Shown piece after piece: positions 26,834 through 37,835 of a stretch of DNA of 64,000 bases. Position numbers and translations under genes: made by a program. Under the pieces are notes generated by a model that saw nothing but the letters and a program-made list of their open reading frames with translations, made no database searches and was not told where the DNA came from. The stretch spans positions 1 through 64,000 of the forward strand of contig NZ_JAATVU010000014.1 in NCBI RefSeq assembly GCF_013184745.1, read 5' to 3'. The stretch comes from Mangrovicoccus sp. HB161399. GTDB taxonomy: Bacteria; Pseudomonadota; Alphaproteobacteria; Rhodobacterales; Rhodobacteraceae. Position 1 is the stretch's first letter, and the number at the start of each line of letters is the position of its first letter.

Positions 26834-27490
26834 TCAGAGCTCGAACTGGGCCCGCTGCTCTTTCGAGGGCATGAGGCAGGCGAGATTGATGACGTAGCGC
26901 TTGCCGTCGGAGGCCAGCCGGACAAGTTCGGCTGCGACCGGCATGTCGCGGCTGTAGGTCTCGTCGAGCCAGGCCGCGGCCCCGCGGTCCAGATGGCCCA
27001 GCACGTAATAGCTGGCCTGGTGGCCGAAGATCACGGTGGCACCGACGGATATGCCGCCGGGTCCGTGCGGGCCGTCCGGCTCGCGGTGGAGCTCGATCTC
27101 GATCAGGTCCTTCGACGGCTCGAACGGCTTCATCACCGCGCGGATGAATCCGTCGATCTCGGGGGCATGGCGGCTGGTGCCCCTCACGGCGATCGCGCCG
27201 CTGCGGTACTTCCAGGCAACCCAGTTGCCGTCCGGGCGGCTCGGCGGAAGGTCGATTTCGACCCAATTTCCGGAAGACGGGCCCCAGGTCCCGTCTCCGC
27301 TCGGCGCGAGGGCATCAAGTTCCAGCTTGGCGGCGACGGCCCGGTTTGCAGCCGCACGCAACTTCTCGATGGCGCTTGGTTGCGCCTGGGGCGGGACCGC
27401 CCTGACATGTGCCGGAAGTGCCGAACGCGCGACCATCAGGGCCATTGCAAATGCGTAGCCCGAAAGCGTGTCGCCCAAGAAGTTGTGCAT
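26834..27490 (-). CDS. Hypothetical exported protein
   Basis: A 218-residue protein not recognised as a known family. The first 27 residues are hydrophobic (LSGYAFAMALMVARSALPAH) and may be a signal peptide or a membrane anchor. A conserved-looking core follows, with NWVEIDLPPSRPDGNWVAW (about residues 75-93), GAIAVRGTSRHAPEIDGFI (about 97-115) and YYVLGHLDRGAAAWLDE (about 163-179). Codon use is like the neighbours. The start ATG at 27490 is preceded by an AT-rich region with two palindromes, so it probably has its own regulated promoter separate from the protease gene upstream. Function unknown. Confidence 0.55.
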   Translation of the reverse strand: MHNFLGDTLSGYAFAMALMVARSALPAHVRAVPPQAQPSAIEKLRAAANRAVAAKLELDALAPSGDGTWGPSSGNWVEIDLPPSRPDGNWVAWKYRSGAIAVRGTSRHAPEIDGFIRAVMKPFEPSKDLIEIELHREPDGPHGPGGISVGATVIFGHQASYYVLGHLDRGAAAWLDETYSRDMPVAAELVRLASDGKRYVINLACLMPSKEQRAQFEL

Positions 27491-27825
27491 GGTTTAAAAT
27501 TCCAGAATCGGTACCAAAGTATGTACTTTTATGCCATTCCGTGCACGGAATCGAGAATTTTTGTTGACCAGATTGTATACGCTCTTGCGTACCAGGTCAC
27601 CGTTTCGCGAAGCCTCCATGCCGCGTCAAGACCGGGGCCTCCCCGGAGCCCTGCAGAACGTGCAGAGGCGCCCTCAGTTCCCGTCGTCACTGCCGCTGCC
27701 GAGATATTTTTTGCCGGTCTGCCGGAGACAGCCGCCAGCAGGGCGCGCCCGGAAGGGACGCTCCCCGGCGGCCTGCATGGCCGGACTTCCCGATGGCACC
27801 CGCGTCCCGCCGGTGCCGGGGTCGT
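27491..27825. other. Intergenic region with two operator-like palindromes
   Basis: The part next to the unknown gene (27491-27600) is unusually AT-rich for this window and holds the two palindromes described at 27515-27551. The remainder to 27825 shows no recognisable gene. Confidence 0.5.
27515..27551 (-). promoter_or_regulatory. Two adjacent palindromes, probable operators
   Basis: AAAGTATGTACTTT (starting near 27516) and the perfect 16-bp palindrome ATTCCGTGCACGGAAT (27536-27551) lie 25-60 bp upstream of the ATG at 27490. Between them on the minus strand is a possible -10 (CATAAA). The arrangement suggests a promoter flanked by two repressor or activator sites. The cognate regulator is unknown; the TPR regulator at 31211 is one candidate by proximity. 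Confidence 0.5.
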
Positions 27826-29763
27826 TCAGTAGGGCCTGGCCCCTTTTGCGGGCGGGGGGCGCTCCCGGGCAAGCCGGTTCTTGACCTCCGCCTTCAGGGC
27901 CTCGGGGTCCCATCTGCCACTGGCCGTTGCTGCCGCCGTTCTCGGCGGGCCCTCGGCCAGCACCCGCACCAGGCAGGCGGCAACGGCGGGGGCAGAAAGG
28001 CTGGTGCCGGTCGCCCGAAGCTTGAAGCCGCCCTGCATAGAGTCCGCAGGCAGGCCGTGGCGGGTCCGGCTCTCCTCGCATGGGGCGAGGACATCGCCGT
28101 CGGGATCCTTGCCCGGCGCAAGTCCGGAATAGGGCACGACCCGGCTGCGCCGGTCGGCCTCGGCCACCCGTCCGTAGCTGCCGCCGACCCGCCAGACATG
28201 CTTGGCCGTCGCATAGGCATTGACCGTGCCGCTGCGCTTCACCGGGCTGCCGTTCCCTTCGTCGTCGAGCCTCAGGCGGCCCGTATCGTCATGGAGCGGA
28301 TAGTCCGGATGGGTGAAGCGCGCTTGCCGCCCGCCCGATGACAGGCCGCGGATGGAATCGTCGCGCTGGACGTCCAGTACGATGCCGCCCGCCGCGGTCG
28401 AGGATCCCGGCGCAAGCCGGATATGCCAGAGCCCGGCCGGAGACTCCTGTCCGCCGAGTTCCGGGTTGGCGGTCGGCGAGAAGGCCAGGATGCGGAGGCG
28501 TCGGCAGCCGCCTATCGTCGTGGTCTCGACATCCTGGTAGACTGTGACCCCCAAGTCGCGGCCGCGGACCTGTCCGTGCCGCAGGCTGCCCTCAAGCTTG
28601 ACGACGTCCTGGCCGTGCTCCGGCAGGTCGATCCAGCTGTCCTCGTTTTCCAGGTAGCTGCCTGGCCGGGCGATCTGGATCCAGGGATCCGCTACCCCAT
28701 GGCTGCGGATCTCGACATAGGTGGGCGTGCGGTCGTCGGGCTGGAGCAGGAAGCCCAGATTCTCGCCCTTTCCGGGCGCAAGCTCGGCATGGCACTGCCA
28801 TTGCCTCGCATTGCCCATCGGCAGCACCAGATGCAGCGGCCCCAATCCTTCCAGTTCCAGCGCCGGGTTGCAGAGCGCGTCGAAGATCCGCTCCAGCCGA
28901 CCGGTGCCGTCCTTCGCCCCGGCGAGGATGCCGAAGCTGAGATTGACCACGACGGGCAGCGGTTCGGTTGCGGCAGTCGCCTCGGCGATGCGCCGCGCAG
29001 CAACCATGATGTAGAGCAGGCCGGTGATCAGAAAATAGGGCAGGAGCCGTCCCGAGGTGTCCCGCACCGCCAGCGACGGCAGGCCAACCATGACCAGAGG
29101 AATATCGGAATCTTCCGGCTCCCTGTTTGCCGGGTCTAACGCGGTGCCGAGGACCGCGGATCCGTGGCCGAAGCGTTTTTCCAGCCTAAGCTTGCGCCTT
29201 GCGTTTCGGACGCCGGGATAGGCGGACTCGCTGCTGATATCGACGGCACCGCCGCCCCTGCTTACCGAAAAGCCCTCGATGAACTTGAGCATTCCTGGCC
29301 GGAACTCGTAGCCGAAGGGCACCGGCTGCTTGGCCGGGGCTGGGGGCAGGCCCTGCTGGAGCCAGACGGATGCCAGCCGGTTTCCGTACCGGGCCGTGGC
29401 CAGCGGCACGTTTTCGTCCATGATTGCGAGAATGGCCTTTGGCGTGGCAGTGAGATGGCTCGGACTGACGTCATCGTTGATCGGCGAATCCGGAAGACCG
29501 CGGATAGCGCCTTCCAGGAGCCTGGGCTCGGCCACGAACACATCGCGGTAATGGGCAAGCGCCTCGATCAGGATGTCATAGGCATGTTCATAGGCCTTCC
29601 TGGCTGCTGGGTCGCCAGGGCAATTGCCGAGGGCCCGGCGCACATGTCCGGGGTGGTTGACGGACAAGGCCGCGGTGTTTTCACCGCCGCGGCCGACAGA
29701 GCGCAGCTGCATGGCGTGGTGCAGATAGGGCGAGATCGACCAGAGCGTCGGATGCTGTTCCAT
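27826..29763 (-). CDS. Subtilisin-family (S8) serine protease-like protein, no signal peptide
   Basis: A 645-residue protein with a subtilase catalytic triad. The Asp is in AILAIMDENVP (about residue 116), the His in KRFGHGSAVLGT (about 200), an oxyanion-type Asn in PLPVVVNLSFGI (about 305) and the Ser in ATGTSLSAPAVAA (about 588). Spacing is unusually long between His and Ser, with a jelly-roll-like insert (WHIRLAPGSSTAAGGIVLD) before Ser. No signal peptide is present, so it may be cytosolic or exported with a partner. It starts 3 bp after the PAP2-type gene and is likely cotranscribed. Substrate unknown; the pairing with a vanadium-peroxidase-fold protein is not one I know. Confidence 0.75.
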   Translation of the reverse strand: MEQHPTLWSISPYLHHAMQLRSVGRGGENTAALSVNHPGHVRRALGNCPGDPAARKAYEHAYDILIEALAHYRDVFVAEPRLLEGAIRGLPDSPINDDVSPSHLTATPKAILAIMDENVPLATARYGNRLASVWLQQGLPPAPAKQPVPFGYEFRPGMLKFIEGFSVSRGGGAVDISSESAYPGVRNARRKLRLEKRFGHGSAVLGTALDPANREPEDSDIPLVMVGLPSLAVRDTSGRLLPYFLITGLLYIMVAARRIAEATAATEPLPVVVNLSFGILAGAKDGTGRLERIFDALCNPALELEGLGPLHLVLPMGNARQWQCHAELAPGKGENLGFLLQPDDRTPTYVEIRSHGVADPWIQIARPGSYLENEDSWIDLPEHGQDVVKLEGSLRHGQVRGRDLGVTVYQDVETTTIGGCRRLRILAFSPTANPELGGQESPAGLWHIRLAPGSSTAAGGIVLDVQRDDSIRGLSSGGRQARFTHPDYPLHDDTGRLRLDDEGNGSPVKRSGTVNAYATAKHVWRVGGSYGRVAEADRRSRVVPYSGLAPGKDPDGDVLAPCEESRTRHGLPADSMQGGFKLRATGTSLSAPAVAACLVRVLAEGPPRTAAATASGRWDPEALKAEVKNRLARERPPPAKGARPY

Positions 29764-29766
29764 GGT

Positions 29767-31068
29767 TCAGGACCACCGCTCTTCCCATTCCGCCTTGGCC
29801 TTGTCCCAGAGGGCTCCGAAAAGCCGGGCTGGTTCCGGATCTGCGACCTGCAGAATGCTGGCCACGCTGGTGCCCTGGTTCGCCTGCGTGATGAGGCGCA
29901 GCAGTTCCTGCATGTGGAAGTTGCGCGGGACGGGGACTTTGTTCGGGTCCAGTTCCGTGTATTGTCCGCCTGCGAAGGCGAACCCGAGCGCCGCTCCGGT
30001 CTCGGTCGGGTCGCGGTGCTTCACGCGTGCCACCAGCAGCCTTGCCAGGCTGATGCCGAGAAGCGCCCCGGCCGCGCTGTCTGCGGGATAATGCACGCCC
30101 GCGACCGTGCGGTTGATCGCAATGCGGGCGGCGAGCCGGTAGATATGCGGAACCGATTTTGACTCGCCCTTGAGCACATCCTCGATGTTCCGGCGACGGC
30201 CATCCTGTGTGTCAGAGCCGTCGCTCATCAGTGCCTGCGTGATCTTGGCCGCGACCTTCGGAAAGCGCAGCTGCACCAGCAGTTCCGCGAGCAAGAAAGC
30301 CTGGGTCGCATGGCCGCTGGGAAAGCTGCCATGGCTTGGCGTCTGGATGACCGGCTGGAGCTGCGGTGACAGCAGTTCGGGGCGGGGGCAGCCGAGTTCC
30401 AGCTTGACGCGCTGCACCATCAGCGTGCCGAAATCGAGCGCCGAGCCCAGCATGTCGAGCGTCTTGCGGTAGCCCGCAGGCTGCAGCGGCGTGACCGAGC
30501 CGAAGAAGGACAGCAGGTCGGACATCTGCAGGTGGATCTCGGGCAGCCGGTCCTCGCGCAGGTCGGCATGCGCGGCGACCAGTTCGAGTGCGGCCTGGAA
30601 CTCCGCGATCTGGGGACGCGTGATCCGGGCGACGGGCTGCATGGTCCCATTTTGGCCATGGTCTAGCGTCTGGACCTCGACAGTCTCGGGGATTGCCGTC
30701 CCTGGCTTCTTTGGGCCTTCCGTCCCGGGTTTTTCGGGAATTCCCGTCCCAAGAATTTCCTTGGTCACGCAGACGCGCATCGTTTCCGCCAGCTCGGCCT
30801 TGACCACGGCGTCACGCTCGCTGTCGCTGAGCCGGAACAGCCGCTTTGCCGGATCATAGGAAGTAGGCAATTCTCCCGCACTGGGTGGCGTCACTTGTAC
30901 GGATTCCACCCCGATCAGACCGTCCCGCGTCGCGATCAGAGCCTCGCCGATCAGCATGGAGTCCTCGCCGCCGGCATGGTCGAAATCATGCGCGGTGCTG
31001 GCGCCGGAACTGCGCCCGCTCTTGGAGGTCTTCGAAGTTTTCGAAGTCTTCGAGGTAAATGTAGTCAT
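29767..31068 (-). CDS. PAP2/vanadium haloperoxidase superfamily protein with intact site
   Basis: A 433-residue protein with an N-terminal low-complexity segment of TSK repeats (residues about 5-16) and a KPGT-rich stretch (about 111-128), then a PAP2-fold domain. The conserved site residues are all present: Lys222 and Arg229 in KLELGCPRP, Ser251-Gly252-His253 in FPSGHATQ, and Arg320, His326 and Asp330 in NRTVAGVHYPAD. This is the shared vanadate/phosphate-binding pattern of acid phosphatases and vanadium-dependent haloperoxidases. No transmembrane segments or signal peptide are obvious, which favours a soluble haloperoxidase-like protein over a lipid phosphatase. It heads a probable operon with the subtilase gene and is divergent from the TPR regulator. 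Confidence 0.78.
   Translation of the reverse strand: MTTFTSKTSKTSKTSKSGRSSGASTAHDFDHAGGEDSMLIGEALIATRDGLIGVESVQVTPPSAGELPTSYDPAKRLFRLSDSERDAVVKAELAETMRVCVTKEILGTGIPEKPGTEGPKKPGTAIPETVEVQTLDHGQNGTMQPVARITRPQIAEFQAALELVAAHADLREDRLPEIHLQMSDLLSFFGSVTPLQPAGYRKTLDMLGSALDFGTLMVQRVKLELGCPRPELLSPQLQPVIQTPSHGSFPSGHATQAFLLAELLVQLRFPKVAAKITQALMSDGSDTQDGRRRNIEDVLKGESKSVPHIYRLAARIAINRTVAGVHYPADSAAGALLGISLARLLVARVKHRDPTETGAALGFAFAGGQYTELDPNKVPVPRNFHMQELLRLITQANQGTSVASILQVADPEPARLFGALWDKAKAEWEERWS
31021..31056. repeat. Four tandem 9-bp repeats coding for TSK units
   Basis: Four copies of a CTTCGAAGT-like 9-mer (31021-31029, 31030-31038, 31039-31047, 31048-31056) encode the Thr-Ser-Lys repeats at the N-terminus of the PAP2-type protein on the minus strand. 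The copies differ by one to three bases. Such arrays change length readily by slippage. Confidence 0.8.
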
Positions 31069-31210
31069 TCTTTCGGTCCAATGAATTCGATCAATGCGCC
31101 CGCAATGTCTTGCGCATGCCGATTATTAACTACATATTACCTAGCGTAAACATTTTTGGATCCTGACCGTCGAGGTTCCGGCATTTTCATTGGGGCGGCC
31201 GCCTGGAAAC

Positions 31211-32797
31211 ATGCATCGATTGACTCTGCACCTGGCGGGACCCGTGCGCCTCGTCGACGGCCAGGGGGCCGAACTTCCCGTGAAATCGGTGAAGGCCCGT
31301 GCACTGCTTGCCGTTCTGGCCATGTCCCACGGCGCGCGCTGCCAGCGCGCCCGGCTGATGGAGCTGCTCTGGAGCCGCGGGCGCGCACAGGAGAGCCTCC
31401 GCCAGGAACTGCGCAAGCTGCGGATGACTGCCGGGGCGGACATCTTCCTCGGCGGCACCGGTTGGGTCGGGCTGGACCGCAGCGTCGTCGCGGTCGAGTC
31501 CGCCTCGCCGCAGGACGGGTTCGGCCCGGCCGAGTTCTGCGACGATCTCGACACGATCCGCGAGCCGGAATTCGAGGACTGGCTGCGCGACTGCCGCCAG
31601 GCGATGGCGCCGCCGGGCCCGGCCTTCCGGCCGCCTGAGCCCGAGGCGCCGCCGGAGGGGCGCGCGCCGTCCCGTCCGGCCGTGCCGGTGCGGATCACCA
31701 TCGGGGCCTGCGACTGCGCCGAGGACGGACAGCGGATCCATGCCGAAATGCTGCTGCGCGATGCGGCGCACCGGGCGGCGCCGCTGATGCATGGCGAGAT
31801 CTGCGAATCCGGCCCGGCCGCTCCGGCGGAGGGGCTTCTGCTGGGGTGCCGGGCCGCGGGAGGATACGGCCGGATCATCCTGCAGCCGCAGGTGGTCCGC
31901 GCGGAAGACGGCAAGGTGGTCTGGTCCCAGTTCTTCGCCGCGCCGGACGAATTGCTGGCCGAAATGCTGGCCGATGCGGTGGCCGCGACCACCGTCGCGC
32001 TGGTCTCCGCCGCGTCCAAGCTGCGCGGGGCGGAAGGAACGGGCGGGCCGGGACGGACCGAGGCGGCGATCCCCTTCGCCGATGTGTTCAGCTTCGACCG
32101 CGACCGGCTGGCCCGGGCGGATGCGCAGCTTGCCGTGCTGCAGGAGGGCGGCGGCAGCGGCGGCATCCTGGCGCTGCGCGCCATGGTGCGGCACAACCAG
32201 CTGATGGAACGCTTCGTTGCCGATCCGCACGAATGCCTCGACGAGGCGGACCGGCTGGCGCATCACGCGCTGGAGCAGTCGCCGCAGGATCCCTTCGCGC
32301 TGTCGGTCGCGTCGCTGACCGCCGGGCTGGTCCATGGCGACGAGATGGCGCTGGAACTGGCGGTGATGGCCAAGCGGGCCGATCCCGACCATGCCTTCGT
32401 GCGCCAGAGCCTGTCCGTCGCGCTGTCCTTCACCGGCCATGCCGAGGAGGCGCATGCCGAGGCGAATGCCGCGCGCAGCAACCGGATGGCGCTGCTGGCG
32501 CCTCCGCTCTTCCATATCCGCAACGCCAAGTCCGCGCTCGGGGTGGGCGACCGGCGGGCCGCGCTGCGCTGGGGCATCCTGGCGGTGCAGGGCGCGCCCA
32601 GCTTCCGTGCCGCGCACCGCTTCGTGGCGGCGCTGGCCTATGACGCGGGAGAGGAAGAGACCGCGCTGCGCAGCCTGCAGGCGCTGCGCGCGCTCGAGCC
32701 CGATTTCTCGCTCGACCTGATGGCCGGCGACAGCTACCCGGTCTTCACCCTGCGCGCCGCCGGACTGATGGCGGTGACCCGCTCCGGCCTGATCTAG
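31211..32797 (+). CDS. SARP/BTAD-type transcriptional regulator with TPR region
   Basis: A 528-residue protein. The first 90 residues look like a winged-helix OmpR/SARP-type DNA-binding domain (LTLHLAGPVRLVDGQG at about residues 3-18, then SVKARALLAVLAMSHG, RARLMELLWSRG and SLRQELRKLRM). A Pro-rich linker (about 140-160) leads to a central adenylate-cyclase/periplasmic-like region, and a C-terminal helical part (from about residue 340) has TPR-like helices (DEADRLAHHALEQSPQDPFAL, HAEEAHAEANAARSN). These regulators usually read metabolic or signalling state and control nearby accessory genes. It is divergent from the PAP2/subtilase pair and upstream of the second peroxidase gene, so both are plausible targets. 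The start could also be 21 bp upstream (TTG). Confidence 0.75.
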   Translation: MHRLTLHLAGPVRLVDGQGAELPVKSVKARALLAVLAMSHGARCQRARLMELLWSRGRAQESLRQELRKLRMTAGADIFLGGTGWVGLDRSVVAVESASPQDGFGPAEFCDDLDTIREPEFEDWLRDCRQAMAPPGPAFRPPEPEAPPEGRAPSRPAVPVRITIGACDCAEDGQRIHAEMLLRDAAHRAAPLMHGEICESGPAAPAEGLLLGCRAAGGYGRIILQPQVVRAEDGKVVWSQFFAAPDELLAEMLADAVAATTVALVSAASKLRGAEGTGGPGRTEAAIPFADVFSFDRDRLARADAQLAVLQEGGGSGGILALRAMVRHNQLMERFVADPHECLDEADRLAHHALEQSPQDPFALSVASLTAGLVHGDEMALELAVMAKRADPDHAFVRQSLSVALSFTGHAEEAHAEANAARSNRMALLAPPLFHIRNAKSALGVGDRRAALRWGILAVQGAPSFRAAHRFVAALAYDAGEEETALRSLQALRALEPDFSLDLMAGDSYPVFTLRAAGLMAVTRSGLI

Positions 32798-32989
32798 CGG
32801 ACCGTCCGCGCGGCCGCGATTCACGCTGCTTTCCCCCCTGGCGGTCCAGGCTGTTTCCGCAGACCGCTGCCGCGTGCCGAGGCGGTCCTCCGGAGCTTCC
32901 CTGCCGGAGGACAGGCCAGTCCGAAACGCTTCTCCTTCCCGCCGCGGCGGCGGCTGCACCGCCCAGAGGGAGACAAGGGAGAAGACGGA

Positions 32990-34792
32990 ATGAGCGAAGA
33001 CAGGCGGGGGCCGCCCGCCGAAGGACCGGCGCTGCAGGACTCCGGATGCGGAAGCCGCACGTGCCGTTCCGGCGGCAGGGCCGCTGTTCCGCCCTGTCCC
33101 GGGGCGGCCGGCCATGCGCCGCCATCGGCGGCCGCCTTCGCAAAGGGACTGCCCCATGACAGCAACGGCCTGGCGGCGCTGGCGCCCGAACGCGCCGCCG
33201 CCGTCGCGCGCGAGGATGCCTTCCGCACCAGCCATGCCGGACTGCCGCATGGGCGGCGGCTCCGGCCCCCCCCGCCGGCCGGACAGGCGCAGGATGGCGC
33301 CGCATCGGCATCGGCCGGTCTTGCCATGGCACCTGCGCCGCGGCTGGGCAGCAACGAACTGGCCGCGGAAATGGCGGAACTCTACGGGCTCGCCTTGCTG
33401 CGCGACATGCGCTTTTGCGACATCGAGGCCGAAGCCGGGTCGCCGGGACCGGCCGGGGTCTCGCCCGCAGAGGTGATCGCCGCGCTGAACCGGCTGGAGC
33501 ATTTCGCGGCCGAACCGGGCGATCTCGACGGCCAGGCGCATCGCCGGCTCGCCGTGCGGCTTGGCATGGGAGGCGGTCCGCTGTCCGGGGCGTCCGCGTT
33601 CCGCGGCGCAGCCTGCGGCGCCCGCCCGGGGCCCTACCTCTCTCAATTCCTGCTGCAGGGCAGCGCGGGCCAGGCGCGCTCCGGCCGGATCGCCTATGGC
33701 GCGCAGTCGATCGACCAGCGCTGCACGGGCTTCCCGCCGGGGCTCGACTACATGGGCGACTGGCACAGCTGGCTCGACGTGCAGAACGGCGCGGACCCGG
33801 CCGGGCTGCAGGTGCTGCGGGCCGATCCGCTCTTTCCGGAGACGCCTCGGGACCTCGCGGCCCATGTCCGCGCCGACCGGCCCTTCCAGGCCGGGCTGAA
33901 CGCAGCGCTGATCCTGCTGAGCTACGGGCTGCCTGCCGATCCGGGCCTGGGGGCGGTGGCAGGGTGCGGCGCGCCGGGACTTCTGGCGGCTCTTGCCGAC
34001 GTTTCCTGCCTGGCGCTGGAGGCGATGCAGCGGCAGAAATCCGGCCATCACCGCCGGGCGCGGCCGGAGAAGATCGGCGGGGTGCTGACGCTGGCGGCCA
34101 ACGGCCGGGGTGGCCGGCTGGGGGCGGAGGAAGGCGCGGCGGAGCAGATGGCTGCCGCGCTCGGCGCCACGGGCCTTCCGGCTGCGGTTGCGGCGATGAA
34201 CGCGCGGTCGCTGGCGCAGGTGGCCAATCCCTTGGCGGGCCGGGGCAACCCCGGCTGGCTCGCCGCATCCTGGCTGCTGCCGCAGGCCTTCATCGAGGGA
34301 TCGCCGATGACGCCGTCCTACGGTTCGGGCCATGCGGCGGCGGCCGGGGCCTGCGTGACGGTGATCAAGGCCTGCCTGTCGATGTTCCGCGCGGGCGGCG
34401 GCTGGCAGGACAGGACGATGGCCGGCATCGGCATGGGCGGCGTCTTCCGGGCCGCCGCGGGCGGCACATTGCTCGAGGCAGTGCCGGACGCGCCGGAGCT
34501 GACCGTCACCGGCGAGCTCGACAAGCTGGCCGCGAATGTCGCCATGGGCGGCATGATGGCCGGGGTGAGCTACCATTCCGACTGCTTCGACGGGCTGCGC
34601 TTCGGCGAACGCGTGGCGGTCGGCATGCTGCGCGCCCGGCTTGCGGCCCGCGGGGGGCCGGCCAGCCTGCGCTTCCGCAGCTTCGACGGCGATCTGGTGC
34701 GGCTGGTCGCAGACCGGGCGGAAACCCTGGCCGAGATCAACGGCTCCCAGGATGCCTTCGCCGGCTGGTGGACGCGCGACCAGCCCGGCTGA
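32990..34792 (+). CDS. Vanadium haloperoxidase homologue with altered metal site
   Basis: A 600-residue protein of the algal/bacterial vanadium-dependent haloperoxidase type. After an Ala/Pro/Gly-rich N-terminus it has FAKGLPHDSNG (residues about 50-60), QKSGHHRRARPE with Lys350 and Arg358, SPMTPSYGSGHA with Ser446-Gly447-His448, and ANVAMGGMMAGVSYHSD. By position against Ascophyllum-type enzymes, the vanadate-binding Arg is Gly521, the covalent vanadate ligand His is Ser527 and the auxiliary His is Thr441. Lys, the first Arg and Ser-Gly-His are kept, with the expected 8-residue Lys-Arg spacing. Loss of the ligand His predicts no classical peroxidase activity. The fold seems otherwise complete, so it may be a pseudoenzyme. 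AGGGAGA sets the start. Confidence 0.78.
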   Translation: MSEDRRGPPAEGPALQDSGCGSRTCRSGGRAAVPPCPGAAGHAPPSAAAFAKGLPHDSNGLAALAPERAAAVAREDAFRTSHAGLPHGRRLRPPPPAGQAQDGAASASAGLAMAPAPRLGSNELAAEMAELYGLALLRDMRFCDIEAEAGSPGPAGVSPAEVIAALNRLEHFAAEPGDLDGQAHRRLAVRLGMGGGPLSGASAFRGAACGARPGPYLSQFLLQGSAGQARSGRIAYGAQSIDQRCTGFPPGLDYMGDWHSWLDVQNGADPAGLQVLRADPLFPETPRDLAAHVRADRPFQAGLNAALILLSYGLPADPGLGAVAGCGAPGLLAALADVSCLALEAMQRQKSGHHRRARPEKIGGVLTLAANGRGGRLGAEEGAAEQMAAALGATGLPAAVAAMNARSLAQVANPLAGRGNPGWLAASWLLPQAFIEGSPMTPSYGSGHAAAAGACVTVIKACLSMFRAGGGWQDRTMAGIGMGGVFRAAAGGTLLEAVPDAPELTVTGELDKLAANVAMGGMMAGVSYHSDCFDGLRFGERVAVGMLRARLAARGGPASLRFRSFDGDLVRLVADRAETLAEINGSQDAFAGWWTRDQPG

Positions 34793-34816: not shown

Positions 34817-35659
34817 TCAGCGCCGCGCCAGCACCCGCGCCAGCGCGCAGAAGCGCTCCAGAGAGACGGTCTCGGCCCGTGCGGTCGGATCGATCCCGGC
34901 CTCTTCCAGCTTCGCCTCGATATCCGGCGCGTAGCCCTTCAGCGAGGAGCGCAGCATCTTGCGGCGCTGGTTGAACGCGGCCGCCACGACTTTCGACAGG
35001 CCTTCGGCCGGGGCCGGATAGCGCGGCTCGGGCAGGGCGGTGACATGCACCACGGCGGAATTCACCTTGGGCGGCGGGGTGAAGGCGCGGGCGGGCAGGT
35101 CCATCACGATCCGGGCCTCGGCGCGCCACTGCGCCAGCAGCGCCAGCCGCCCGTAGGCCTTCGATCCGGGCGCAGCCACGATCCGCTCGGCCACCTCGCG
35201 CTGGAACATCAGCGTCAGGCTCTGCCACAGCGGCGGCCAGGTCTCCGGCGTCAGCCAGCGCACCAGCAGCTCGGTGCCGACATTGTAGGGCAGGTTGGCG
35301 CAGACCCGGATCGGCCCGTTCAGATGCGCTGCCCAGTCGACCTCCAGGGCATCGCCCGAGATGACTTCCAGCCGCCCCGGATAGGCCTCGGCGATCTGCT
35401 GCAGCGCGGGCAGGCAGCGGGTGTCCTTCTCGATCGCCACCACGCGGCGGGCCCCCATGGCCAGCAGCCCGCGGGTCAGCCCGCCCGGCCCGGGGCCGAT
35501 CTCCAGCACGTCGCAGCCGGTCAGGTCGCCCGCCGAGCGCGCGATCTTGGCCGTCAGGTTCAGGTCCAGCAGGAAGTTCTGCCCCAGCGACTTGCGCGCC
35601 GAAAGCCCGTGCTCGGCGATCACCTCGCGCAAGGGCGGCAGGCTGTCGATGCCGCTCAT
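34817..35659 (-). CDS. rsmA: 16S rRNA (adenine1518-N6/adenine1519-N6)-dimethyltransferase
   Basis: A 280-residue KsgA/RsmA with [21 protein letters not shown] (about residues 19-39), the SAM motif [16 protein letters not shown] (about 51-66), [19 protein letters not shown] and the catalytic [11 protein letters not shown] (about 120-130, the (N/D)PPY-type motif), all conserved. It dimethylates helix 45 of 16S rRNA during small-subunit maturation. It overlaps pdxA by 4 bp (ATGA) at the end of the lptFGD-surA-pdxA-rsmA cluster, a gene order also seen in enterobacteria. Confidence 0.97.
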
Positions 35660-36630
35660 GCCGCGGCCCTCCGCCCGGCCATCTTCCAGGCGAGGCGCAG
35701 CGCCGCGATGGTCGAGGTCGGATCGGCGGTGCCTGTCCCGGCGATGTCGAAGGCGGTGCCGTGATCCGGCGAGGTGCGGATGAAGGGCAGGCCCAGCGTG
35801 ACGTTGACGCCTCCCGCGAAATCGACCGTCTTTATCGGGATCAGCGCCTGGTCGTGATACATGCAGATCGCCGCGTCATAGCGGGCACGCGCCGCCGGGT
35901 GGAACATCGTGTCGGCCGAGGACGGACCGGCAAGGCCGATGCCCTCGGCGCGCAGCCGTTCGAGCGCGGGCGAGATCAGCTCGATCTCCTCGCGGCCCAT
36001 TGCGCCGCCTTCGCCGGCATGCGGGTTCAGCCCGGCCACGGCGAGCCGCGGGGCGGCAATGCCGAAATCGCGCTTCAGCGCGGCGTCAGTGATGCGGATG
36101 GTGTCTTCCAGCAGCTCCGCGGTCAGCGCGCGCGGCACCTCGGCGACGGGGATGTGGATCGTCACCGGAACGACGCGCAGTTCCGGCGCGGCCAGCATCA
36201 TCACCACCCGGTCCGTGCCCGCGAGATGGGCGAGATACTCGGTATGCCCGGGGAAGGCGAAGCCCGCCCCGTCCTTCAGCGCCTTCTTGTGGATCGGCAG
36301 CGTGCAGACCGCCGAGGCCCCGCCCCCCTGCACCAAACGGACCGCGCGGGCGATCGCCTCGATCACGCCGAGCGCGTTCTTCGGGTCGGGGCGGCCCGGG
36401 ACGGCGGCCCCGGCGAAATCGTGGCGCAGCACGGCCAGGCTTCCCGCGGGCTCCATGGCCTCGGCAGGAGAGGCGATCTCGTGCCAGAGCGCGCCTTCGG
36501 GCAGGTGGCGGGGATCGCCGATCCAGAAGAACGGCAATTCGCTGCCGAGCCGGGCCTGCGCCAGCAGCGCAAGCTCCGGACCCACCCCGGCGGGCTCGCC
36601 GCAGGTCAGGGCAATCGGGGCGCGGGCCAT
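35656..36630 (-). CDS. pdxA: 4-hydroxythreonine-4-phosphate dehydrogenase
   Basis: A 324-residue PdxA of vitamin B6 synthesis, which oxidises 4-phosphohydroxy-L-threonine. [14 protein letters not shown] (about residues 9-22) opens the enzyme, and metal and substrate sites are recognisable in FPGHTEYLA (about 130-138), LNPHAGEGG (about 195-203), [17 protein letters not shown] (about 255-271) and [14 protein letters not shown] (about 288-301). The ATG at 36630 overlaps the surA stop by one base and the stop overlaps the rsmA start by 4 bp. Confidence 0.96.
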
Positions 36631-37835
36631 CACAGCCGCTCGATGAAGGCGTTGGCGCGCAGCTCGGCGAGGTAGCCGTTGGCCAGGTCCTCGAGCTTGC
36701 GCGAGAACAGCCGCCGCTGCAGGTCGTCGCGGCTGAGATCCGCTCCGGCGATCGGCGTGCGCGCACACAGCATCACCACGGCGGAATTGCCCGGCAGCAC
36801 CGCCATTTCCAGCGGGTCGAGCCGGTCGATCACCCCGCGCACGCCCGCGGCAGTCTCGGCGCGCGGCCCGGTGACATGCTCGATCCGGGTTCCGCCCGGG
36901 TCGGAGACATGGGAGTAGATCGAGTCGCAGGTGCTCACCAGCGGCTCCAGCCGCGCCATTTCGGCCGGGGCGGCGCCCTGCGGCGTGCGCAGCAGCATGT
37001 AGTCGAGCGTGACGTTCTGCATGACGCCGGGACGCGAGTCGCGCAGGCCGCGCAGCTGGAACAGCGCGATCGCGTCGACATTCGGCAGCGGCAGCGGCGG
37101 GGTCACGTCCCCCGGCGCCATCGACAGCATCAGCGGCGCGATCTGCTCGGGCAGGTTCGACAGCGGCATCCAGCCGAGCGCGCCGCCGGAATCGCCAGAG
37201 GGCGAGGCCGAGAGGTCGCGCGCGGCGCGGGAGAATTCGTCGAAGCCCTTCATCTGCTGGATCGCGTCGGCCTGCTCGCGCACCAGCCCGGCGGTTTCGG
37301 GCAGCAGCGGCAGCACGATTTCCGCGAGCTGCACCTGGACCGAGCCCTGGCCGGTGCCGAGCGCGATGGCGCGGTCGATCTCCTCGTCAGAGACCCGCGC
37401 CTGCGAGGCGTAGCGGCTGCGCACGACATCGCGCCAGGCGGTGCCCGCGCGGACGAAGTCGCGGAAGGTCTCCGGGTCCACGCCCTGCTGGGCGATCGCG
37501 GCGACGAATTCGTCGGCCGAAAGGTTGGCGCGCGAGGCGAATTCCTCCATCGCCTGCTGCAGCTGGTCCTCGCTGAGGGTCACGTCGAGCCGCGCGGCCT
37601 CGGCCAGTTCCAGCCGCTCGTCGATCAGCGCGTCGATCACGCCGTCGCGGGTCAGGCCGGACTGGCGCAGCACTGTCAGGAACTGCATCCGCTGCTCGAC
37701 CTCGAAGCGGGTGATGACGCTTTCGTTGACGCGCACCACCGGGTCGAAAGGCGACTGCGCTCCGGCCGGCTGGGCCAGCGCGGCAAGGGAAAGAACCAGC
37801 GCCGCGCCGGCGCCCTGCAGGAGTTTCTTCAGCAT
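36630..37835 (-). CDS. surA: SurA-type periplasmic chaperone/peptidylprolyl isomerase
   Basis: A 401-residue exported protein with a signal peptide (about residues 1-26, ending AGAQS). A SurA_N-like region follows (VVRVNESVITRFEVEQRMQFL, about 33-53, and IDALIDERLELAEA), and a single parvulin-like region (about 165-270) includes GDSGGALGWMPLSNLPEQIA. Classical SurA has two parvulin domains; the second is not obvious here, which is usual for alphaproteobacterial members. It carries outer-membrane proteins such as LptD, whose gene is directly upstream. Confidence 0.85.
   Translation of the reverse strand: MLKKLLQGAGAALVLSLAALAQPAGAQSPFDPVVRVNESVITRFEVEQRMQFLTVLRQSGLTRDGVIDALIDERLELAEAARLDVTLSEDQLQQAMEEFASRANLSADEFVAAIAQQGVDPETFRDFVRAGTAWRDVVRSRYASQARVSDEEIDRAIALGTGQGSVQVQLAEIVLPLLPETAGLVREQADAIQQMKGFDEFSRAARDLSASPSGDSGGALGWMPLSNLPEQIAPLMLSMAPGDVTPPLPLPNVDAIALFQLRGLRDSRPGVMQNVTLDYMLLRTPQGAAPAEMARLEPLVSTCDSIYSHVSDPGGTRIEHVTGPRAETAAGVRGVIDRLDPLEMAVLPGNSAVVMLCARTPIAGADLSRDDLQRRLFSRKLEDLANGYLAELRANAFIERL

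Follow-up and report, generated by a model that had tools for sequence, protein, structure and literature searches.

Do five unusual neighbours at positions 26834 to 34792 of a stretch of the Mangrovicoccus sp. HB161399 genome belong together, and what could such a set do? The stretch (the first 64,000 nucleotides of contig NZ_JAATVU010000014.1, hereafter the window) comes from a 7.18-Mb draft genome of 323 contigs, and the closest named matches of its genes are from Rhodobacterales. An earlier note, made from the letters alone, had described here a PAP2/vanadium haloperoxidase (VHPO)-fold gene and a signal-less subtilase lying 3 bp apart, a divergent SARP/TPR-type regulator followed by a full-length VHPO homologue, and an orphan exported protein. 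All five open reading frames (ORFs) were found where that note had placed them. We found that three of the five genes, those for the regulator, the PAP2 protein and the subtilase, form a conserved module and are not an accidental grouping. The PAP2 protein starts with a perfect tandem peptide repeat, (TSK)4, which is absent from the earlier note and is the key feature of the locus.

A conserved module of regulator, PAP2 protein and subtilase

The module occupies the following positions of the window:

27826-29763, minus strand: P0002, signal-less subtilase of family S8, 645 residues (from its catalytic set, profile relatives and an AlphaFold2 model)
29767-31068, minus strand: P0003, soluble PAP2/VHPO-fold protein with an N-terminal tandem repeat, 433 residues (PF01569, E = 1.6e-13)
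31012-31020, minus strand: Ser-Gly-Arg (SGR) unit, single copy, behind the TSK array (from comparison with loci L039, L079 and L080)
31021-31056, minus strand: tandem tripeptide repeat (Thr-Ser-Lys)4 at residues 5-16 of P0003 (each of the four copies with its own codon set)
31069-31210, no strand: intergenic region between the divergent regulator and the PAP2-S8 operon, presumed promoter/operator (from the sequence)
31211-32797, plus strand: P0004, winged helix-turn-helix (wHTH)/TPR regulator (from Pfam matches of relatives and an AlphaFold2 model)

The S8 gene is the downstream member of the closely spaced minus-strand pair, and the VHPO homologue P0005 comes next after P0004; the gene arrangement of the earlier note is thereby confirmed. 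The P0004 ORF begins with a TTG at 31190, and the ATG at 31211 is the start that agrees with its relatives. Among the window proteins Pfam recognizes PAP2 clearly (P0003 scores above the cut-off), finds S8 and the wHTH of P0004 below threshold and names no VHPO family; NCBIfam gives no match above its cut-off for any of them.

We compared loci recruited in several ways. The S8 query matched 29 of 149 genomes of the family, and 35 stretches around these matches plus seven plasmid stretches make up the S8-recruited set of 42 loci. A PAP2-profile scan of 84,980 species genomes returned 539 stretches with a PAP2 relative, the best 80 of which were analysed; the recruiting profile (A2) was derived from PAP2 proteins adjoining S8, and these 80 loci include near relatives. 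In the best 80, S8 lies within 3 kb in 79 (the subtilase of L134 is farther away), the regulator is present in all 80, and a perfect repeat of at least three copies was seen in 77 at the first pass and in 79 on rescanning. In the S8-recruited set, 39 of 42 loci contain PAP2; the regulator accompanies it in each of these 39 and the repeat in 38. When all 123 loci that contain a PAP2 member are counted, 120 have S8 and every one has the regulator within 3 kb. In a phylum-wide sample of 398 genomes, 15 (including that of the window) had full-length PAP2 places, 17 in all; the 15 regions fetched (4 already in the first set) all contain regulator and subtilase, and thus all three parts. Labels in these counts are those of the best-scoring family, the regulator profile comes from an iterated set that possibly includes one subtilase ORF (L043), and ORF starts are those of the longest ORF or were picked by a crude ribosome-site rule. 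Gene order varies: in the 120 loci with all three genes, the regulator is divergent from a PAP2-S8 operon in 58, all genes share one strand in 47, and both neighbours lie on the opposite strand in 15. The refuting condition of the earlier note, that the genes never co-occur elsewhere, clearly fails for regulator, PAP2 and S8; the orphan falls outside the set, and the VHPO homologue is optional.

Some PAP2 relatives lack these companions. Nine further loci (L280-L288) have neither a repeat nor an ORF labelled S8 or G1, and one of them, L280, has a regulator-labelled ORF. Their N-termini are clearly signal-like in L280 and L283-L286, borderline in L282 and not so in L281, L287 and L288. These loci mark the edge of the family; secretion would leave L281, L287 and L288 unexplained. 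The 37 viral PAP2 loci, which were read for S8 and VHPO labels, have neither of these and no repeat, and the G1-linked PAP2 proteins described below gave no match among viruses.

The N-terminal peptide repeat of the PAP2 protein

An N-terminal tandem repeat is present in nearly every protein of the PAP2 alignment, and its unit differs by lineage. We counted 71 distinct units, 64 tripeptides and 7 tetrapeptides, in 136 loci (the count includes duplicates L220 and L221 and 23 hand-entered units): TSK in the window and SGR, NAQ, NAK, HAK, HGE, NSF, GGV, EAV, ENW and others in relatives. NSF is the unit of the trio found on plasmid pGal_C110 of the marine strain Phaeobacter gallaeciensis DSM 26640. 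At least four perfect tripeptide copies occur in 108 of 123 PAP2 ORFs versus 5 of the 6434 remaining ORFs (100 residues or more) of these loci, and in 0 of the 37 viral PAP2 loci. The degenerate DNA pattern for TSKTSKT (TCN serine codons only) has no second occurrence in the 7.18-Mb genome. Six of the 123 PAP2 loci showed no perfect array at the first pass: L096 and L109 have one further in, L121 has a hexapeptide pattern, L068 is imperfect, and L075 and L078, both recruited by the VHPO query, have none.

Every copy of the unit can differ between sister species, as shown by (NAQ)5 in L095 and (HGE)5 in L097, whose cores group together. Nine genomes have two repeat loci (G001, G004, G063, G073, G075, G127, G249, G485 and G764), and their two repeats always differ, which could also be chance given so many units. 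In the window, the lone SGR unit after the TSK array has the sequence repeated in the (SGR)n arrays of its closest relatives and is possibly a remnant of an older array. A copy-by-copy comparison between species was not used, as it pairs only arrays of equal unit and copy number and returns zero non-synonymous changes by construction. Near-duplicate loci (L094, L120, L090 and L112) were removed from the neighbour-cluster and unit counts; the module of L120, titled Oceanobacillus sp. HTM 045, matches that of G004 down to the same repeat, and its genus label is probably wrong.

At the DNA level the copies are not uniform. They are all identical in 0 of 109 distinct arrays, synonymous codon heterozygosity between copies averages 0.63 versus 0.55 expected from the remainder of each gene, and adjacent identical 9-mer copies number 24 of 754 versus 49.8 on within-array shuffling (none of 1000 shuffles gave so low a count). 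At the protein level the repeat stays constant, and at the DNA level its copies are scrambled. Codon scrambling and avoidance of identical neighbours would be expected if selection preserves the amino-acid word and slippage-prone DNA repeats are avoided or lost. Not one of the 220 unit positions is a proline, where 14.8 would be expected, and this is consistent with a track that proteases can reach. A neutral low-complexity tail from replication slippage, with no specific role, could account for units rich in G, N and S and for the higher-order DNA repeats in the arrays of L059, L061 and L085. It would leave unexplained the excess of codon scrambling, the avoidance of identical neighbours, the lack of proline and the array in nearly all family members; we regard it as very unlikely, and the codon statistics led us to reject slippage as the sole origin. 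One repeat of another kind was seen beside a module: an unrelated 885-residue ORF of L062 (10251-12908, plus strand) has about 17 DPV copies.

Partner proteins and neighbouring genes

The best solved matches of P0003 are the acid phosphatases 7f17 and 7f18, then LpxE and bromoperoxidases. Residues K222, R229, PSGH250-253, R320, H326 and D330 are invariant in 43 of 43 aligned rows and make up the motifs KX6RP, PSGH and RX5HX3D; the motifs of the conserved PAP2 member are of acid-phosphatase type. A hydrophobic N-terminus (a 13-mer averaging > 2.0 in hydropathy within residues 1-50 of the longest ORF; a few true PAP2 N-termini lie further in) was found in 0 of 123 PAP2 ORFs. Of six phosphatases chosen as controls, five were positive in this test and one reached 1.82; the controls were first read over 70 residues, and a rerun over 50 gave the same values. 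P0003 shares its motifs with soluble acid phosphatases and vanadium bromoperoxidases and differs from them by having no signal peptide, an N-terminal tandem repeat, and a regulator and protease alongside.

In the subtilase family, D116, H200, N318 and S588 (the Asp/His/Ser triad and the oxyanion Asn) are invariant in 55 of 55 rows. P0002 itself stays below the threshold of the Pfam S8 model (E = 0.037), carries a beta-rich insertion that separates its Asn motif from its Ser motif, and was modelled by AlphaFold2 with a predicted local confidence (pLDDT) of 77.2 and a predicted template-modelling score (pTM) of 0.86. Its nearest solved relatives by profile are the clostridial Csp germination proteases (CspB 4i0w; 9sj6; E about 1e-22). 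The Csp subtilases differ in hosts and partners, and to our knowledge no PAP2 or TPR partner is known for them; moreover, Asp285 (PxDG), conserved in the window's S8 family, is Arg or Asn in the two best-aligned Csp chains. In 85 of 106 arrays the first copy follows the initiator Met in triplet register (the start rule is crude, and related loci are not independent). This register and the conserved Asp285 are weak hints of N-terminal stepwise cutting. In Paracoccaceae (L031, L040, L081-L111 and others) an ORF of 59-89 residues overlaps the end of PAP2 and, mostly, the start of S8. The small protein often reads ...SPYLHY..DLR....ALRDLI..AF and by eye looks like the N-terminus of the window's S8, which suggests that a split-off subtilase N-domain could work in trans, perhaps as propeptide or adaptor.

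In nearly all loci seen the protease is of the S8 subtilase type, and in a few distant relatives it is of another catalytic class (glutamic in 5 loci, cysteine in 1, metallo, by motif, in 1). Five weaker PAP2 matches of the phylum sample (L234-L238) all have the regulator. Four of them carry perfect tripeptide arrays (TGN, QTQ, DAR, AGN), and L238 shows a run of the dipeptide NK around residue 95. Their partner is a G1/A4 glutamic peptidase in L234 and L237, another subtilase type in L236 and L238, and a member of the main S8 family without a Pfam match in L235. The G1 family is present in 7 of 385 alphaproteobacterial genomes searched. Five of the seven have no hydrophobic N-terminus (best 13-mer 0.15-1.58), and all five (L234, L237, L270, L273, L274) lie directly behind a repeat-PAP2 gene with a regulator. 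The other two have signal-like N-termini (1.92 and 2.82); L271 has no PAP2 within 10 kb, and the upstream region of L272 is cut by the contig end. In L266, the neighbour of a PAP2 with (AGGG)8 is a papain-like C39/C70 cysteine protease. In L278, a PAP2 with an irregular GLG-rich head has a convergent neighbour of 983 residues, a putative metalloprotease by its HEFGH motif alone, with no Pfam match.

The regulator P0004 combines an N-terminal SARP/OmpR-like winged helix, a central alpha/beta domain resembling FlgO/TolB_N and a C-terminal TPR-like superhelix. Its AlphaFold2 model (pLDDT 90.4) has a winged-helix-like part at residues 11-103, an alpha/beta part at 167-252 and paired helices at 304-502. 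All regulator relatives scanned with Pfam have TPR (10 of 10 and 6 of 6), and part of them have a wHTH, cyclase, FlgO or TolB_N domain. Three N-terminal outputs occur among the relatives: a SARP-type winged helix, an OmpR-type winged helix and an adenylate/guanylate cyclase. This build of output domain, FlgO/TolB_N-like domain and TPR is shared with the alphaproteobacterial cyclase-TPR and CadC-like wHTH-TPR one-component regulators. The module regulator differs from these in being tied to a repeat-PAP2 and a protease, and in exchanging its output among SARP, OmpR and cyclase.

Three further features flank the module:

26834-27490, minus strand: P0001, probably exported orphan protein, outside the module (no homologue in 48 other loci, no Pfam match above cut-off)
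27536-27551: perfect palindrome ATTCCGTGCACGGAAT, 16 bp, before the orphan gene P0001
32990-34792, plus strand: P0005, bromoperoxidase-like VHPO homologue, 600 residues, optional neighbour (from alignment with 5lpc)

A halogenation or peroxide role had been considered in the earlier note, and P0003 and P0005 do share the VHPO/PAP2 fold by sequence. In the C-terminal motif of VHPOs an Arg binds vanadate and a His holds the axial position. In P0005, Gly521 and Ser527 replace this Arg and His of bromoperoxidase 5lpc, and the protein is probably not an active haloperoxidase. VHPO-labelled ORFs occur in 15 loci, six of which (L038, L074-L078) were recruited by the VHPO query, and most loci have none. 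That the Arg/His motif is intact in six VHPO relatives (L072, L074-L078), and in L038 by alignment, speaks for a vanadium haloperoxidase locus. The lost residues of P0005, the optional place of the VHPO gene and the acid-phosphatase motifs of the conserved PAP2 member speak so strongly against it that we give this reading hardly any chance; for the module core we rejected it on motifs and lost vanadate-site residues. A divergent VHPO group beside S8 (L046, L053, L054, L058, L061, L063, L065) has lost the axial-His position and mostly kept the Arg, which suggests non-catalytic VHPO-fold partners.

The orphan P0001 was dropped as a candidate module part, as the 48 other loci compared hold no homologue. 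One of the two palindromes noted before its start is real: ATTCCGTGCACGGAAT is the sole perfect palindrome of at least 16 bp between 24000 and 38000. The other is a weak inverted repeat (76%). On the right, the edge of the module adjoins genes at 34817-36768 that by eye resemble rsmA/ksgA and pdxA, i.e. housekeeping neighbours. Across loci, none of the top 25 conserved neighbour clusters is tied to the module throughout; they are mostly Paracoccus-type synteny, spurious ORFs and generic families, such as those recognized by eye as an ABC ATPase cluster (19 loci) and an alanine-racemase-like family (11 loci).

A possible tag-processing mechanism and its alternatives

The common thread of these observations is a protease without an export signal, a repeat whose copies are identical and whose word changes, and an adjacent TPR protein. 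On this basis we propose, with a confidence that stays somewhat short of even, that the protease processes the repeat tag and that the TPR regulator senses the tag or its product. The repeat would be the substrate or docking track of the co-encoded protease, which would trim the N-terminal tag of PAP2 and release short peptides, and trimming would alter how active or how abundant the PAP2 enzyme is. The neighbouring regulator would read the tag or the products and control the operon, the cyclase-type regulators of other lineages would make cyclic nucleotide, and this output would close a feedback loop. With a unit specific to the lineage, each set would interact with its own partners only. The earlier statement that no substrate gene is visible may then be wrong, since the repeat at the PAP2 start is a candidate substrate, and the peptide-processing role raised at the same time holds up as a possibility as far as the literature could be searched.

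Several observations weigh against this proposal. Seven of the 71 units are tetrapeptides, and the arrays of L068, L121 and L278 are imperfect, which shows that a three-residue spacing is not obligatory; the tetrapeptide lineages argue against strict tripeptidyl release by the subtilase. Glycine-rich units, GGV and GGA for example, have little specificity and could simply form a flexible tag. Co-variation of the unit with alignment columns of S8, the regulator and PAP2 gives high scores because clade and unit coincide, and was not used. No gene for an exporter or importer is conserved among the top 25 neighbour clusters, and the cysteine and metallo partners are known from one locus each. Some loci are incomplete: three of the 42 S8-recruited loci have no PAP2 (L043; L058, close to a contig end; L069, with a degenerate S8), L075 and L078 have a PAP2-labelled ORF without adjoining protease or repeat but with a regulator-labelled ORF, and L281, L287 and the fragmentary L288 have N-termini that are not clearly signal-like, no repeat and no adjoining protease. 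The S8 relative of L069 (G073:C6, 7259-9415, minus strand) has no catalytic His and Ser motifs and no PAP2 within 16 kb; it looks decayed or repurposed.

An alternative in which the repeat is never cut deserves a place, although we consider it unlikely: a multivalent docking tag would tether PAP2 to the TPR regulator or the protease (as scaffold, sequestration or condensate), and the protease would act elsewhere. TPR superhelices usually bind short linear peptides, and identical copies would provide avidity. The unit class also tracks the type and orientation of the regulator within the PAP2-S8 family, units containing K, R, D, E, H, Q or N accompanying 64 of 69 divergent SARP-type regulators versus 0 of 27 of cyclase type, 5 of 11 of OmpR type and 1 of 8 same-strand SARP-type ones (tree and comparison without L075, L078, L094 and L120). 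However, these classes follow large tree clades, and the rule fails in the G1-linked loci: L274 combines a TGN unit with a cyclase-type regulator (Pfam), and the regulators of L234, L237, L270 and L273 appear by eye to be cyclase-type as well. For both reasons we do not lean on it. Furthermore, a tag alone leaves the accompanying protease, sometimes of another fold, unexplained.

The exchange of proteases beside a fixed partner also resembles modular immunity systems. In a conflict system triggered by stress or an invader, the regulator would sense the trigger, the protease would activate the PAP2 effector or be restrained by it, and the repeat would be an activation or inhibition tag. In favour of such a system are the patchy presence seen here (1 of 4 genomes of the window's genus and, as given above, 29 of 149 of the family) and the plasmid copies (33 plasmid records with an S8 match and 35 with a PAP2 match), in one of which a Qat system lies about 9 kb from the module. 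However, 0 of 5 window proteins match any described defence family in PADLOC-DB 2.0.0 at E 0.01, none of the 37 viral loci has an S8 relative, and in loci of the Paracoccus type some flanking families are shared by as many as 22 loci, a pattern suggestive of vertical inheritance. We think this explanation improbable, a little more so than uncut docking.

Among known systems, we compared the proposed tag processing with the RRNPP/RRNPPA pairs (Rap-Phr, PlcR-PapR, AimR-AimP), in which a TPR receptor lies beside a peptide gene and proteases mature the peptide. The module is similar in that its TPR regulator adjoins the peptide-bearing gene (within 3 kb in 123 of 123 loci). It differs in that its peptide occurs as tandem copies joined to a PAP2 enzyme that lacks a hydrophobic N-terminus, and in that the protease is part of the locus and no exporter or importer is seen conserved nearby. 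One feature that defines RRNPP systems, a pro-peptide with an export signal, is seen in 0 of 123 PAP2 ORFs, and we use the resemblance as a working analogy. A bolder form of the processing mechanism, to which we assign a low probability, would be Gram-negative peptide signalling: a single tri- or tetrapeptide would be stored as many identical copies at the PAP2 N-terminus, released by a co-encoded protease whose catalytic class can be exchanged, and read by the TPR regulator or cyclase, each lineage, and each paralogue within a genome, having its own word.

The view that no described system has this set holds as far as the literature could be searched: a full-text search found no description of it (with strict word combinations, and thus weak evidence of absence), and the three-gene unit seems undescribed. 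It is widespread in Alphaproteobacteria and occurs in some Betaproteobacteria, and existing domain models give its parts unrelated labels. Sequence alone seldom points to a code at the level of peptides, and this unit is such a case: its peptide repeat stays perfect across scrambled codons, its word varies from species to species, and its protease can switch catalytic class.

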